A stretch of 64,000 nucleotides of DNA from the NCBI RefSeq assembly GCF_023699475.1, contig NZ_JALXFV010000005.1, forward strand, positions 1-64,000, given 5' to 3'. Within the stretch, counting starts at the first letter, position 1; every line of letters begins with the position of its first letter. This stretch comes from Halomarina rubra (GTDB lineage: Archaea; Halobacteriota; Halobacteria; Halobacteriales; Haloarculaceae). The notes beneath the pieces are model-generated. The model was not told the origin of the DNA, ran no database searches, and saw only the letters and a program-made list of their open reading frames with translations. Positions 6,092-26,310 of this stretch are shown here, in pieces. A program made the position numbers and the translations under genes.

Positions 6092-7615
6092 ATGGACGGA
6101 CTGGGGTTCCACACGCTCGATTCGGAGCAGGACACCGAGTTGCGCGTCGACGGGAGCCTCCCGTCGTGGCTCGACGGCAGTCTGATTCGGAACGGCCCCG
6201 CACTGTTCGAGGCCGACGGCGACGGCGTCGACCACTGGTTCGACGGCCTCGCCATGCTCCATCGGTTCTCCTTCGCCGACGACGAGGTCCACTACCGCAA
6301 CCGCTTCCTCCGTACCGAGAGCTACGAACGTGTCCGTCGCGGCGACGTCCCGACGGGTTTCGCCACCGGCAGTTCCTCGCTGCTCGACACGCTGCGCTCG
6401 CTGGTGGCCGGGGCCCGTTACGACAACACGAACATCGTCGCCGAACGGTTCGACGACCGCTACCTCGCGCTGACGGAGACGCCCGGCGGCGTCGCCTTCG
6501 ACCCCGAGACGCTGGCGACCGACGGACACGTCCGGTACACCGGCGACGAACCCAGCGGTCACCTCGCGTGTGCCCACCTCCAGCGTGACCCGTGGACCGA
6601 CCGGTTCGTCACCTTCGAGACCGAGTTCGGCCGACCCTCGCGCTACCACGTCTTCGAGACGCGTGACTTCACGACCCGCCGACACGTCGGGTCGGTTCCC
6701 GTCGAGGAACCGGCGTACATGCACAGTTTCGCGCTGACGCCGAACTACGTCGTCCTCACGGAGTTCCCGTTCGTCGTCGATCCGCTCGCGATGCTGGTCG
6801 GCGACGGCGCGTTCGTCGACGCCTTCCGCTGGGAACCCGAGCGCGGGACCCGGTTCGTCGTCCTCGACCGCCGTTCGGGGGGCGTCGTCGCTACCCCGAC
6901 GACGGAAGCGGTGTTCGGCTTCCACCACGTCAACGCCTACGAGCGCGACGTGCAGGGTCGACCCGGCGAGTCCGGCGGAGTCGGCGAGGTGGCCCACACC
7001 GAATACGGCGAGACGACCGACGGCCGGCCTCGCCCCGGCGCGGAACTCGTCGTCGACTGCGAGACGGTTCCCGACGCCGCCTCCCTGGCCGCACTCTCGC
7101 TCGACCGCTTACGGCGGGGCGACCTCGACGTGTTCGGCGGGTCGCTCGACCGGTTCGTCGTCTCGCTTCGGGCGGACGGCGCGACGGTTCGTCGCGAACG
7201 TGTCCACGACGGCACCGCGCTCCCGACGGCCTCGCCCGCGGTCCGCTGTCGGCCCTACCGCTACGCCTACGCGCAGGACACCGACCAACCGGTGACGGCG
7301 TGGCCGAGTCGACTCGTCAAGGTCGACGTCGAGACCGGCGACTACTGGACGCACAGTGTCGAGGCAGGGCACGTGAGCGAACCGATTTTCGTCCCGCGTG
7401 TGACGGGTGAGAGTGGCGAGAGCGGTGAGAGTGGCGAGCGTGCTCGGGACCACAGCGAGGACGACGGCGTCGTGCTCGCGGTCGAACTCGACCGGGAGGC
7501 GGGTCACTCCTGGCTGGTCTGTCTCGACGGGCCGACGTTCGAGGAGCGGGCGCGAGCGGCGATTCCCCACGCCGTCCCGTTCGACTTTCACGGCCGGTGG
7601 TTCCCGGAGCTGTGA
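6092..7615 (+). CDS. Carotenoid oxygenase (RPE65/CCD family)
   Basis: 507 residues. The family cleaves double bonds of carotenoids or related polyenes with a non-heme iron held by four histidines. All four contexts are visible: HLACAHLQRDP, YMHSFALTPNYVV, FGFHHVNAYE and, near the C-terminus, VPFDFHGRWF. The N-terminal SWLDGSLIRNGPALFE matches the usual GxxxRNGP motif. The start is the ATG at 6092. Near residue 440 there is an unusual run of three ESG units, probably a surface loop. It may cleave a C40/C50 carotenoid (retinal or an apocarotenoid as product); the bacteriorhodopsin-linked Brp/Blh enzymes are a different family. Confidence 0.93.
   Translation: MDGLGFHTLDSEQDTELRVDGSLPSWLDGSLIRNGPALFEADGDGVDHWFDGLAMLHRFSFADDEVHYRNRFLRTESYERVRRGDVPTGFATGSSSLLDTLRSLVAGARYDNTNIVAERFDDRYLALTETPGGVAFDPETLATDGHVRYTGDEPSGHLACAHLQRDPWTDRFVTFETEFGRPSRYHVFETRDFTTRRHVGSVPVEEPAYMHSFALTPNYVVLTEFPFVVDPLAMLVGDGAFVDAFRWEPERGTRFVVLDRRSGGVVATPTTEAVFGFHHVNAYERDVQGRPGESGGVGEVAHTEYGETTDGRPRPGAELVVDCETVPDAASLAALSLDRLRRGDLDVFGGSLDRFVVSLRADGATVRRERVHDGTALPTASPAVRCRPYRYAYAQDTDQPVTAWPSRLVKVDVETGDYWTHSVEAGHVSEPIFVPRVTGESGESGESGERARDHSEDDGVVLAVELDREAGHSWLVCLDGPTFEERARAAIPHAVPFDFHGRWFPEL
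7409..7435 (+). repeat. Three tandem 9-nt units inside the carotenoid oxygenase gene
   Basis: gagagtggc, gagagcggt and gagagtggc encode ESG-ESG-ESG in frame. The repeat is probably a slippage expansion in a surface loop. Confidence 0.8.
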
Positions 7616-7631
7616 GTGACGTCGGCTGCGG

Positions 7632-8462
7632 TCACTCCGTCGGCGTCGGCGCGGGACCGCTCCGGACGACGTGGCCGTACTTCAACAGCGCGACGAACAC
7701 CGTCCCGCCGATGACGTTCCCGAGCGTCGAGAACAGCAGGAAGTAGCCCACGTTCCCGAGGCCGAGCGCCCCGGCGAACAGGCCGAACCCCACCTCGACG
7801 GTGCCCGCGATGCAGTGTGGCGCGTGGAGCAACGCGATGGCGCTCGTCGTGACGACGACGAACAGCACGCGCGCGATGGACTCCTATGCGGCCGCGACGA
7901 GCCACGACAACAGCCCCATCAGCCAGCCGGCGAGCACCCCCGCACCGACGACGACGAACCACTCGTGTTCGACGAGGCTCGTCGACAGTTCGGCGAACGC
8001 CTGCGGTTCGACGACGCCCACCGCGGGGCCGACGAGGACGAAGAAGCCCGCGAACAGCGTCGCGCCGACGAGGTTCCCGGCGTAGACGACGCTCCAGAGC
8101 CGCCCGAGTTCGCGGACCGACGCCTGTCGGTCGAGCACCGGCAACACCGCGAGCGTCGTGTGCTCGGTGAACAGTTCCGAGCGCCCGAGCACGACCAGCA
8201 CGAACCCGACGGAGTACGCGAACGCCATCAGGAGCTCCTTGTTCAGCTCGCTGGCGAACGAGAAGTCCGCGAGCGTCAACACGATGGCCATCAACGCGGG
8301 CCCGAACCCGATGTCCAGCCCCGCCGACAGCCCCGACAGGAACAGGCCGTCGGTCGGCCGTCGCAGTTCCGAGAGACCGCTGCGAATCTGCTCGGAGAGG
8401 ATGTCCTCCTGGCTCTTCGGTTGCTCACCCGCACGGCCGCCGCCCGAGGAGACGAGACTCAT
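7632..8462 (-). pseudogene. Formate/nitrite transporter (FNT) gene interrupted by one in-frame TAG
   Basis: The first 192 codons encode an FNT channel: GLSAGLDIGFGPALMAIV, a GRSELFTEHTT signature, then AGWLMGLLSWL. They end at TAG (7884-7886 on the plus strand). The same frame continues without interruption from ESIARVLFVV to the natural end, with the expected HAPHCIAG and GNVIGGTVFVALLKYGH motifs. In the intact paralogue at 54057 the stop position aligns with Gln (CAG), so a single C-to-T change would explain it. No other damage is visible, so the lesion is recent, a sequencing error, or tolerated by readthrough. The family moves formate, nitrite or similar small anions across the membrane. 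Confidence 0.85.
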
Positions 8463-21887: not shown

Positions 21888-22160
21888 TCAGCTATTCGTC
21901 GCGAGCGAAACGCTCCCGTCGGCGTCGACGGTCACCTCGTACTCCGCGAGTTCGAACGTCGCCGTCCCCGTCGTGCGGGCGGCCCCGTCGCGTCGTGGGG
22001 CGAACAGCGCGTCGAGGGCGTCGGGTTCGACGACGTCGTAGAGGACCGGTTCGAGGGCGTCCGGGCTGACGCCCTTCTCGGCCGCGACTGCGCTGACGAC
22101 GGCGTAAGAGAGCGACTCGTCCGGTTCCATCGGGAGGTTGTCGTCGCGCTTCTGACTCAT
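21888..22160 (-). CDS. HalOD1 output domain protein
   Basis: 90 residues that form a single HalOD1 domain: ESLSYAVVSAVAAEKGVSPDALEPVLYDVVEPDALDALF is cut by a short basic loop and then FELAEYEVTVDADGSVSL. The domain is restricted to haloarchaea and usually occurs alone or at the end of response regulators, where it is thought to act as an output module. The partner is unknown. It lies between secF and a large sensor-regulator, all on the minus strand, but a gap of 84 nt on the sensor side leaves operon membership uncertain. Confidence 0.85.
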   Translation of the reverse strand: MSQKRDDNLPMEPDESLSYAVVSAVAAEKGVSPDALEPVLYDVVEPDALDALFAPRRDGAARTTGTATFELAEYEVTVDADGSVSLATNS

Positions 22161-22244: not shown

Positions 22245-25127
22245 CTAGCCTTCGAGCAGCATCGAGAACAGTTTGCGCTCGGCCGCCCGGAGGTGCTTGT
22301 TGAACGTCGGCTGGGAGATGTCCAGCGAGTCCGCGACCTCCTGGCCGGTCCGGTCTCGGGGCCACTCGAAGAAGCCGCTGGCGAACGCCGTCCGTAACAC
22401 CTCGTGTTGACGGTCGGTCAGCCGTTCGGAGATGCCCGCGCGCACGTCGCGACGGGTCTGGGCCGACGACGAGCGGTTGCGACGGGCCAGCAGGTCGGTG
22501 TCGGCGTAGCGGTGCTGGACGGCCTCGACGAACTCCCGGACGTCGGCGTCCTGGGGGAGTTCGACGACGACCCGGGTGCCCGAGTCGTCGACGCTGATGG
22601 AGCGGGTCACCGCCCCGCAGTCGGCGAGGTGGACGGCGACGATGTCGCTGCTCATCCGGAGTTCACAGCGCACGGCGTCGTCGTCCTCGGCGATGATGCC
22701 CACGTGTTCGACGCCGACGAACTCCTCTTCGAGCGAGCGGATGGTGTCGGGGTCGGTGTCGTGAGCGCTACAGAACACGAGCGAACTGTTGCCGGACTCG
22801 TGGACGATGTCGTCGACCTCGAAGCGGCAGTCGGCGGCGGTCGCCAGTGCGCGCAGCGGCAGGTCGTCGTCCTCGATCTTCAGTTCGAGTTCCGTCACGC
22901 GGTCGGCGAGCATCGTCCGCCGGGTCTCGACGTTGTTGATGGCGTTGGCGACGGTGCCGCCGAACTCGTTGAGCACGTCCCGACGCATCTGGTCGAACGC
23001 GTCCTGTTCGGTCGCGTACACCGCGAGCACGCCGTACAGCACGTCGCCGTGGAGTAGCGGGACGGCGAGCACCGAGAGGTAGTCGTTCGAGAGCGCTGTG
23101 CGTCGCCACGGTTCGTCCTGGAACCCACTCGCCACCTCGCTGACGACGACCTGTTCGCGGGTCGCGGCGGCGCGGGCGGCGGGTTCGGCGAACTCCTCGC
23201 CGAGGGTGAGGTCTACACTGTCGAGGTAGCCGCGGGCGTCGCCGGCGGTCGCACGCGAGACGAGTTCGCCGTCCTCGACGGCGGCGGTCCACGCGAAGCC
23301 GAACTCGTCGGCCGTGACGAGTTCCTCACAGACCGCGGCCTCGATCTCCTCGCGCGTGTTCGCGCCGACGAGTGCGGCGTCGACCGACCGGATGATGTCG
23401 TTGGTCTGTTTCAGGCCGGTCAGTCGGGCGTTCTGTTCGCGCAGTTCCTCGTCGCGTTCGCGCAGGTCGTCCTCGCGTTCGACGCGGTCGAGGGCGGCCT
23501 CCGCGCTCGCGGCGAGCAGGTCGACCAGTTCGCTGGTCTGGTCGTCGAAGGCAGCCGTATCGGTCGACTCGGCGAACAGGACGCCGTGTTCGCCAAGCGG
23601 GACGTACAGCCCCGAGCGGAACGGGGTGTCCTCGTTGAACACCGAGTCGGCCTCGCGCACGTCGTCGTAGCTGAGTAGGTCGCCGGCGACGAACGAGCGC
23701 CAGACGAGCGCCGGGTCCGCGGGGCCGACCGTCGGCAGGTCGCCGACGAGGTCGGTCATCTCGGGGGACCACGAAGCGGGTTCGAGGCGGCCGTGGTCGC
23801 CGTCGAACAGGTAGACCCCGACGCCCTGGAGGTCGAGCACGTCCGAGGCGGTCTCGGCGATGAGGTCGCTGACGTCCTGGCGGTGCTCGGCGGTCAACAG
23901 CTCCCGGGTCGAAGTGTGGAGTGCCGTGAGCGTCTGTTCGTAGCGTTTGCGGTCGGTGATGTCACGAGCGACGCCGACGAACCCCTGGCTGCCGTCGCGT
24001 CGCGACAGCATCGAGAAGCGCGTCTCGATGGGGACCGACCCGCCCTCGCTCGTCGCGAGGTTCGTGTCGACGCTCGCCACGTCCTCGCCGGACTCGAGCA
24101 TCTGCGCGGAGAGCTCCTCGACCATCTCGAACACGTCGTCGTCCGCGAGCTTCGCGGAGTGCTCGCCGATGAGCTCCTCGCGCCCGAAGCCGGTCATCTC
24201 GGTCGTCGCGTCGTTGACCCACTCCATCCGGAAGTTCGGGTCGAGCGAGTAGACGGCGTCGTCGACGGTCTCCAGGATGGTCTCGTAGCGTTCGAGTTCG
24301 CCCTGGCGACGCTGGCGCTCGATGACGGGTTCGAGCACCGAGGCGACGCGGTGGAGCAGTTGGCGTTCGGCCGACCCGAACTCACGCGCGTTACTGGTGT
24401 AGGCTGCGAGCACCCCCCACGGTCCGTCCGGGAGGTCGAGACCCAGCGCGATGCCGCCGGCGACGTCCCCGACGGACGCGTCGGCGCTGACGGCACCCTC
24501 GGCGTCGAGGGCGGCGCGCGCGAGCGAGTGGTCGTCCGATAGCGTCTCGGGACCGCGCCACCCGGTCTCGGCGACCAGCCCCAGGTCGTCGCTGTCGGCG
24601 CGGTACTCGAACAGGCCACAGCGGTCGATGCCGAGCGACGCCTGGATGAGCGCGGTCGCCTCCTCGAACAGGCGCGGGAGGTTCTGACCTTCGAGCGCGG
24701 ACTGTCGGAGGTCGGCGAGCGCCTCCTGTCTGGTCGCGCGGTCGACGGCGTCCGGTGTGCCGACGGCGTTCCGGACTCGGCGGTGGAGGAGTTCGGAGGG
24801 AGCATCGACGTCGACCACGTCGGTCGCGCCCGCGGCGAGGACGTCGGCAGTCGCCACGTCGTCGGGCACGCGCGCGACGACCGGAACGTCCGGGTCGACG
24901 GCGCGAATGCGGTCGATTACCTCCGGGCCCGTCGTGTTAGGCAGGTCGTATTCGACCAATAGGCAGTCGACGCGCGCGTCGGCCGAGACGCGGTCGAGCG
25001 CCTCGGGCGTGGTCGCGACGGTCACTGCGAGCCCGTTGGCGGTCGTTTCGTCCTCGTTAACACCGCTCACGTGGAGCACGCGCAGAGGAGTGTCGTTCGT
25101 GTCGTTTCGCACCCGACCCGTAATCAT
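22245..25127 (-). CDS. Multi-domain sensor: pseudo-receiver, GAF, PAS, GAF, GAF, bat domain, HTH-10
   Basis: 960 residues. The domains in order are a receiver-like domain (about 15-122), GAF (about 140-272), PAS (about 280-398, ending VGVARDITDRKRYE), GAF (about 400-548), a coiled coil (548-575, REDDLRERDEELREQ), GAF (about 580-735), a bacterio-opsin-activator effector domain (about 745-885) and HTH_10 (903-957, LTDRQHEVLRTAFASGFFEWP, then VADSLDISQPTFNKHLRAAE). The receiver lacks the phospho-acceptor Asp (Glu59 is in its place), so input is likely by ligands or redox. A TATA box (GATTTATC) sits about 29 nt upstream of the start. It is divergent from the terpene synthase candidate and may control it. 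Confidence 0.9.
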   Translation of the reverse strand: MITGRVRNDTNDTPLRVLHVSGVNEDETTANGLAVTVATTPEALDRVSADARVDCLLVEYDLPNTTGPEVIDRIRAVDPDVPVVARVPDDVATADVLAAGATDVVDVDAPSELLHRRVRNAVGTPDAVDRATRQEALADLRQSALEGQNLPRLFEEATALIQASLGIDRCGLFEYRADSDDLGLVAETGWRGPETLSDDHSLARAALDAEGAVSADASVGDVAGGIALGLDLPDGPWGVLAAYTSNAREFGSAERQLLHRVASVLEPVIERQRRQGELERYETILETVDDAVYSLDPNFRMEWVNDATTEMTGFGREELIGEHSAKLADDDVFEMVEELSAQMLESGEDVASVDTNLATSEGGSVPIETRFSMLSRRDGSQGFVGVARDITDRKRYEQTLTALHTSTRELLTAEHRQDVSDLIAETASDVLDLQGVGVYLFDGDHGRLEPASWSPEMTDLVGDLPTVGPADPALVWRSFVAGDLLSYDDVREADSVFNEDTPFRSGLYVPLGEHGVLFAESTDTAAFDDQTSELVDLLAASAEAALDRVEREDDLRERDEELREQNARLTGLKQTNDIIRSVDAALVGANTREEIEAAVCEELVTADEFGFAWTAAVEDGELVSRATAGDARGYLDSVDLTLGEEFAEPAARAAATREQVVVSEVASGFQDEPWRRTALSNDYLSVLAVPLLHGDVLYGVLAVYATEQDAFDQMRRDVLNEFGGTVANAINNVETRRTMLADRVTELELKIEDDDLPLRALATAADCRFEVDDIVHESGNSSLVFCSAHDTDPDTIRSLEEEFVGVEHVGIIAEDDDAVRCELRMSSDIVAVHLADCGAVTRSISVDDSGTRVVVELPQDADVREFVEAVQHRYADTDLLARRNRSSSAQTRRDVRAGISERLTDRQHEVLRTAFASGFFEWPRDRTGQEVADSLDISQPTFNKHLRAAERKLFSMLLEG

Positions 25128-25151
25128 CGCTTAATCAGCACATCTACTAGT

Positions 25152-25161
25152 GGATAAATCG
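25152..25161 (-). promoter_or_regulatory. TATA box for the 960-residue sensor gene
   Basis: The minus strand reads CGATTTATCC, centred about 29 nt upstream of the ATG at 25127, inside an AT-rich divergent intergenic region (25128-25308). Confidence 0.6.
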
Positions 25162-25261
25162 TTCGGCCCATTCTTTACATTCTTGATTCTTTTCCCGTCG
25201 TAATTCATGATTCGGAGAGTGTTTAGTTCATCATTTCGAGAATGTTTCCATACTAAGACCG

Positions 25262-25280
25262 TTTAATGCAAACATTTACG
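25262..25280 (+). promoter_or_regulatory. TATA-like elements for the terpene synthase candidate
   Basis: tttaatg (25262-25268) and catttacg (25273-25280) lie 30-45 nt upstream of the ATG at 25309. Which one is used cannot be decided from the sequence. Confidence 0.4.
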
Positions 25281-25308
25281 TGGGGTGCTTCCAGAGTTGG
25301 GGCTGGAC

Positions 25309-26310
25309 ATGGCACACGAACTGGTCGAACTTACCCCGCAACAACCTTCCCTCCCCATCGAGCCCGAACAGACCGACCTCATCGGCGAGGTGACGGCCGT
25401 GGAGCTCCCAGAGACCGTCCGCGAGTTCGTCGCGCAGTACGAGGAGGTGTTCACCGACCGCGACACCTTCCTCTGGAAGTGGATCCACAGTCTGTTCGAC
25501 GCGTTCACGCTCTCGTCGGTCGACGACCGAGACGTTCACGACGTCAAGGAGATTAAGACGCTCTTTACGGTGTTCATCACCTCGCTGGACGACCTCATCG
25601 AGTCCCACGACGACCAGGAGACGTTCGACGAGGCACGGCGTGTGGTCCGGGACCCAGAGACGGTAGACGCCTCGCGCGACGGTGTCAACACCGAGGTCAT
25701 CGAGTTCATCGACGACCTCTGGACGCACATCGACGAGCGTCTCCGTTCGTCCCCCCGATACGGCGAGTTCAAGGACATCTTCGAGTACGACCTCCGACAG
25801 GGGTTCAACGCGATGGAGTACACCCGACTCGTCAGCGACAACGCCCACATCGCCAACGCGACCGGTGCGCGAACGTACGACGCGCACAACATGGTGCTGT
25901 TCCCGTACACCGACATCGACCTCATGTTCTCGACCGGGTTCGCCCTCGAGGACCTCTCGGACCTCCGCGACCTCACGTGGGACCTCCAGAAGATGGCACG
26001 CATCGGCAACTGGGTGACGACCTGGGAGCGCGAACTCACCGAGGGCGACTACTCCGCGGGCGTCATCGTCCAGGCCATCCAGGACGACATCGTCGCCGCC
26101 GACGAACTCGACCCGGCGGGCGACCTCGAGGACGTCGCCGAGCGAATCAAGGAGTGCGGCGTCGAGGAGGCGTTCCTCGACGAGTGGTGCCAGCGCCACA
26201 AACGCGTCTGCGAACGTGAGTACGACATCGAGAGCGTCGACGTCGGCGCGTACATCGGCGGGATGGAGACCGTCATGGAGTACCACCTCGCCAGTCGCGG
26301 CATGAAGTAG
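25309..26310 (+). CDS. Putative class I terpene synthase (terpene cyclase)
   Basis: 333 residues, mostly helical, the length of bacterial class I terpene cyclases. Three metal/pyrophosphate motifs appear in order and spacing. An aspartate-rich motif D94-D95-L-I-E98 sits in a hydrophobic helix (FITSLDDLIE). A pyrophosphate-sensor-type Arg188 follows. An NSE-type triad Asn234-x3-Thr238-x3-Glu242 lies within NWVTTWERE, followed by a Gly-Asp-like turn. Arg188 is exactly 46 residues before Asn234, the spacing described for bacterial cyclases. The usual C-terminal RY pair is not obvious. It would cyclise a prenyl diphosphate (C15-C20). The start is the ATG at 25309 (an in-frame GTG at 25285 is possible). 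Divergent from a sensor-regulator. Confidence 0.72.
   Translation: MAHELVELTPQQPSLPIEPEQTDLIGEVTAVELPETVREFVAQYEEVFTDRDTFLWKWIHSLFDAFTLSSVDDRDVHDVKEIKTLFTVFITSLDDLIESHDDQETFDEARRVVRDPETVDASRDGVNTEVIEFIDDLWTHIDERLRSSPRYGEFKDIFEYDLRQGFNAMEYTRLVSDNAHIANATGARTYDAHNMVLFPYTDIDLMFSTGFALEDLSDLRDLTWDLQKMARIGNWVTTWERELTEGDYSAGVIVQAIQDDIVAADELDPAGDLEDVAERIKECGVEEAFLDEWCQRHKRVCEREYDIESVDVGAYIGGMETVMEYHLASRGMK

Follow-up and report, generated by a model that had tools for sequence, protein, structure and literature searches.

Terpenes are small carbon-ring compounds that act as scents and signals of plants and soil bacteria, and archaea make their membranes and carotenoids from prenyl diphosphates. Class I synthases in general carry a DDxxD/E motif, an NSE/DTE motif, about three basic residues and an effector triad (PMC10563020). 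In the bacterial class I synthases (PF19086; Sat1646, PDB 7e4n) the DDxxD/E motif is followed about 140 residues later by N-x3-S/T-x3-E and a basic residue (K or R) stands directly before the triad glutamate, and these features are shared by the archaeal family described here. For Archaea, a Halomicroarcula genome paper described two 'terpene' clusters and noted only one earlier report (PMC8600319). These likewise concern terpene biosynthesis in haloarchaea, but they are known as cluster calls from genome mining and may consist of carotenoid-type genes. A literature search that covered few subscription papers or preprints returned nothing on class I terpene synthases in archaea, which is weak evidence of novelty.

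The window analysed here is a stretch of 64,000 nucleotides from Halomarina rubra, and it contains a gene that is unannotated, present in a single copy in the genome and similar to class I terpene synthases (Table 1). The ATG at 25309 is backed by the start MAHELV, which is kept in the closest relatives. We consider it probable that the gene belongs to a divergent archaeal family of class I terpene synthases under sensory control, the product of which is perhaps a signal. We rejected a 336-aa antisense ORF (25276-26286), regarding it as the shadow of the conserved synthase frame.

Table 1. Features of the synthase gene and of its flank in the window; residue counts refer to the alignment of 63 family members.
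Feature	Position	Strand	Remarks
Class I terpene synthase-like gene	25309..26310	+	333 aa; stop codon inside coordinates
DDxxE metal-binding motif D94-D95-L96-I97-E98	25588..25602	+	D94 59/63, D95 63/63, E98 E/D 63/63
R188	25870..25872	+	R 9/63, E 24/63, W 12/63
Y190-D191-A192-H193-N194-M195	25876..25893	+	Y190 52/63, D191 31/63, N194 54/63, M195 56/63
D204, invariant	25918..25920	+	63/63; still invariant with methanogen members added
NSE/DTE-type triad R231-x2-N234-W-x2-T238-W-x-R241-E242-x4-D247, basic residues flanking	25999..26049	+	63-member alignment
C-terminal R330-G-x-K333	26296..26307	+	R330 42/63; K333 = K 46 + R 7 of 63
Divergent intergenic region, 181 bp, between synthase and regulator	25128..25308	.	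Alignment of five close relatives
Sensor-regulator: receiver-like, GAF, PAS, GAF, BAT, HTH_10 DNA-binding	22245..25127	-	Pfam
HalOD1 (halobacterial output domain 1) protein adjoining regulator	21888..22160	-	Pfam E 2.2e-24

An earlier note on this DNA had pointed to the reading frame, to D94-D95-L-I-E98, to R188 and to N234-x3-T238-x3-E242, all of which were confirmed in the translation, where the triad region reads N234-W-V-T-T238-W-E-R-E242. In the alignment of 63 members, which spans identities down to about 27%, R231, N234, W235, W239, E242 and D247 are present in every member, as is R220 (63/63), while T238 is found in 62 (T or S in all 63) and R241 in 61. With methanogen members added the invariant set consists of D95, D204, N234, W239, E242 and D247, R231 and R220 not being conserved in Methanosarcina-type members. 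Of the 354 neighbouring genes that encode 200 aa or more, 5 had DDxx[DE] followed by Nxxx[ST]xxxE 120-160 residues further on, and two of these five are themselves members of the synthase family. Judged from sequence the motif pair in the window protein exceeds chance, and the stronger argument is its conservation across the 63 members.

The note had also taken Arg188, which lies exactly 46 residues before Asn234, to be the pyrophosphate sensor of bacterial terpene cyclases. The spacing is correct; as to the sensor role, arginine occupies this position in just 9 of the 63 members. Because R188 is not conserved, the agreement with '46 residues upstream' is most likely a coincidence. A pyrophosphate-sensor arginine is common in bacterial enzymes and absent from some class I synthases, so that its loss limits any claim to the bacterial subtype and leaves the class I assignment unaffected. 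The RY pair, described as not evident, is indeed absent near the C-terminus, where R330-G-x-K333 is a candidate to stand in for it. R231, R241 and R330/K333 would be better candidates than R188 for the basic residues of the active site, and in the bacterial NDxxSxxKE form of the triad a lysine is found at the position equivalent to R241. The Y190-M195 stretch is a possible effector/linker region. In comparison with the bacterial class I synthases the archaeal family thus differs in having N-W in place of the N-D of the triad, with W235 and W239 invariant in the 63 members, in having no conserved arginine at -46 and no RY pair, with a C-terminal R-G-x-K instead, and in being linked to sensory genes (see below).

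Identity as a class I terpene synthase is well supported at the level of the family, by sequence. The window protein alone gave no match up to E 10 in Pfam, NCBIfam or PDB, single members gave no useful match in PDB, and a search of NCBIfam with 49 members gave matches at chance level only. Pfam Terpene_syn_C_2 (PF19086) was matched by 32 of 45 members at E<=1 (best E 7.3e-8). When 147 haloarchaeal genomes were scanned with this family, 22 of the 23 places found coincided with the coordinates of synthase family members; the curated cut-off was exceeded in 13 of the 147 genomes, and the window protein was unmatched. The sole matches of the family profile in PDB were terpene synthases, aligned N/N, T/S and E/E or D at the triad, with weak E-values (Sat1646 0.18, then 0.042; 9rs5, 9rrz and 9rs4 1.1). 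An hhalign comparison of the family with three actinobacterial sequences, two of which are annotated as terpene synthase family, gave E 3.6e-5 with both motifs collinear; one bacterial terpene synthase compared alone with the family profile gave no significant score, and the three in alignment did. The distance from DDxxE to the asparagine of the triad is 140 residues here vs. 136 in a Streptomyces protein annotated as a terpene synthase. What stands of the original assignment to the class I terpene synthases is therefore its family-level part, based on Pfam and PDB matches and near-invariant motifs, and what falls is the sensor role of Arg188.

A structure search had been proposed in the earlier note. 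AlphaFold2 was given three sequences (the window protein and the relatives L001 and L002), and the models were all-helical and of low confidence (pLDDT 56 and 60, pTM 0.56), trimming of the N-terminus lifting pLDDT just to 60. With these low-confidence models, the Foldseek matches listed were entries of the isoprenoid synthase superfamily only, i.e., terpene synthases, prenyl diphosphate synthases and similar, all at E >0.001 and with TM of about 0.25-0.42. Likeness to the plant/fungal-type terpene synthase C domain (PF03936; aristolochene synthase) consists of weakly scoring Terpene_synth_C matches in 10 of the 45 members and of low-confidence Foldseek matches, aristolochene synthases taking up many of the leading places in the first list.

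Besides terpene synthases, the matches of the same low-confidence models include prenyl diphosphate synthases, and the trans-prenyl diphosphate synthases (PF00348; FPPS, GGPPS) belong, by Foldseek, to the same all-alpha superfamily. It is conceivable, if unlikely, that the proteins have kept the class I fold and the metal site without being cyclases, and that they convert a prenyl diphosphate to a linear alcohol or alkene, or transfer its prenyl group to another molecule. The motifs do not reveal the product, and both the RY pair and the sensor arginine that are typical of bacterial cyclases are missing. On the other hand the family has one Asp-rich motif and, as second motif, an N-x3-T-x3-E triad of the NSE type, unlike the second DDxxD of prenyl transferases, and neither PF00348 nor PF00494 was matched by the window protein or found among the families matched by members.

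If the proteins are terpene synthases, as we favour, DDxxE and N-x3-T-x3-E would hold the Mg2+ ions by which the diphosphate group of the substrate, a prenyl diphosphate, would be bound, and R231, R241 and the C-terminal R330/K333 would help to hold this group. The diphosphate would then leave and the carbocation would cyclise or be quenched to yield a terpene hydrocarbon or alcohol. The Halomarina rubra genome encodes three PF00348 polyprenyl synthases and two PF00494 SQS/PSY proteins, located elsewhere, so that prenyl diphosphates should be available and FPP, GGPP or GFPP are possible substrates. GGPP or FPP seems likeliest, and GGPP is our guess because archaeal lipids run through GGPP. In the window the adjoining sensor-regulator probably turns production on and off, and in two other genomes a receiver domain fused to the synthase probably does so directly. 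As to its role, the product might be a signal or a small molecule connected with stress.

The synthase family is strongly linked to sensory genes. In the window the synthase and the sensor-regulator diverge from a common intergenic region (Table 1), in which a block conserved among the five aligned close relatives sits just upstream of the synthase. The adjacency of regulator and synthase is kept in relatives, and HalOD1 recurs at related loci. According to gene calls the synthase has a sensory or regulatory gene as its immediate neighbour at 26 of 47 loci, in varying arrangements, i.e., divergent, or on the same strand upstream or downstream of the synthase. Such genes make up 27 of 94 immediate neighbours vs. 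10 of 270 genes located 4-6 places away (Fisher p 2e-10), a count biased by a reference set drawn from the neighbours themselves, with which an independent Pfam count agrees. In the latter, 93 immediate neighbours gave PAS_9 16 times and HVO_A0261_N, HATPase_c, BAT and HTH_10 8 times each, whereas 87 genes five places away gave HTH_10 twice, with the other four outside the 25 commonest families (at most 1 each); the loci in these neighbour counts are related by descent and hence not independent. At 19 of the 47 loci, mostly from two lineages, there is no sensory or regulatory gene within two places. As the Halomarina rubra genome holds 60 HTH_10 genes in 4.07 Mb, chance alone would place one of them beside no more than a few per cent of all genes. 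The Methanosarcina-type synthases show a comparable arrangement at three loci, where PAS proteins lie immediately upstream and co-directional (L105:9645-11183, L108:9730-11205, and L109:7301-8782).

The most direct sign that the synthase belongs to signal transduction is its fusion to receiver domains. A single 504-aa ORF (L064:8763-10274) combines Response_reg (E 8.3e-17), HalX (8.1e-7) and the synthase domain, and by eye its receiver retains the acidic pair, the phospho-acceptor Asp, the Thr and the Lys. A receiver is likewise fused to the synthase in L125:1077-2519, which comes from a different taxonomic family. Among the long upstream frames a recognisable extra domain is found in L064 and L125 only; other apparent upstream fusions (L047, L052, L053, and others) were rejected, as they read as GC-rich DNA translated off frame, low in complexity and rich in R/S/P. 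The adjacency to sensory genes and the receiver-synthase fusions are both newly found here. The fusions suggest phosphorylation as a switch for a terpene synthase and, if true, control of such an enzyme by phosphorylation of a receiver fused to it would be novel as a mode of regulation. It is tempting to go further and regard the terpene as an archaeal signal or stress molecule under two-component control, switched after kinase/PAS sensing by transcription or by phosphorylation of the fused receiver; we hold this full scheme to be tentative and on balance doubtful. Owing to the link to sensory genes, the idea of a terpene signal in archaea can be tested directly.

The adjoining sensor kinases and regulators, together with the two receiver fusions, would also fit a non-catalytic sensor, in which an isoprenoid or its diphosphate, once bound by the fold, would trigger a signal to the kinase or regulator next door. 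In a pure sensor some of the catalytic metal ligands should have been lost, whereas these are kept in nearly every member, which makes this reading highly improbable. That the protein is an unrelated helical protein with motifs arisen by chance in an acidic proteome, for which it would speak that the window protein has no direct match in Pfam, NCBIfam or PDB, is hardly credible in view of the conservation of both motifs in 63 members, the Pfam matches of the family, and PDB profile matches to terpene synthases only.

Relatives of the synthase were found in 119 of 394 Halobacteriales genomes (about 30%) and in 43 of 95 genera, the nearest named relative's protein being that of H. oriensis (86% identical). 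The family profile also finds relatives in further families within the phylum, and those outside Halobacteriales are taken to be methanogens, including the Methanosarcina-type members. The statement that archaea are not known as rich sources of such enzymes consequently needs revising, and with members in about 30% of the haloarchaea sampled, and in methanogens too, the family would make archaea a place to look for terpenes. All six annotated haloarchaeal plasmid records that carry the gene label its product 'hypothetical protein'. No relatives were found in the viral contigs and phage records searched. The backbone of a maximum-likelihood tree was poorly resolved and allowed no call on whether archaea gained the gene from bacteria.

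Additional copies of the synthase gene were seen in a few genomes. A genome of Halomarina contains, besides an intact copy, a second copy that is broken in two pieces, one of them with a stop (G383:C1:1465603-1466555), and the synthase is duplicated, in tandem or near-tandem, in two other genomes (L063:8326-10708 and L062:6504-13225). As to other genes near the synthase, L105 has a methyltransferase-like gene (7099-7902) downstream, and a tryptophanase is located close to the synthase on two Halorussus plasmids (L074:5767-7125 and L075:5841-7196), which may be simple synteny. On a Halobellus plasmid a SAM methyltransferase and a prenyltransferase/squalene oxidase repeat protein are encoded directly downstream of the synthase (L073:8952-11241), and this pair is of the kind of tailoring genes that a terpene cluster could have.
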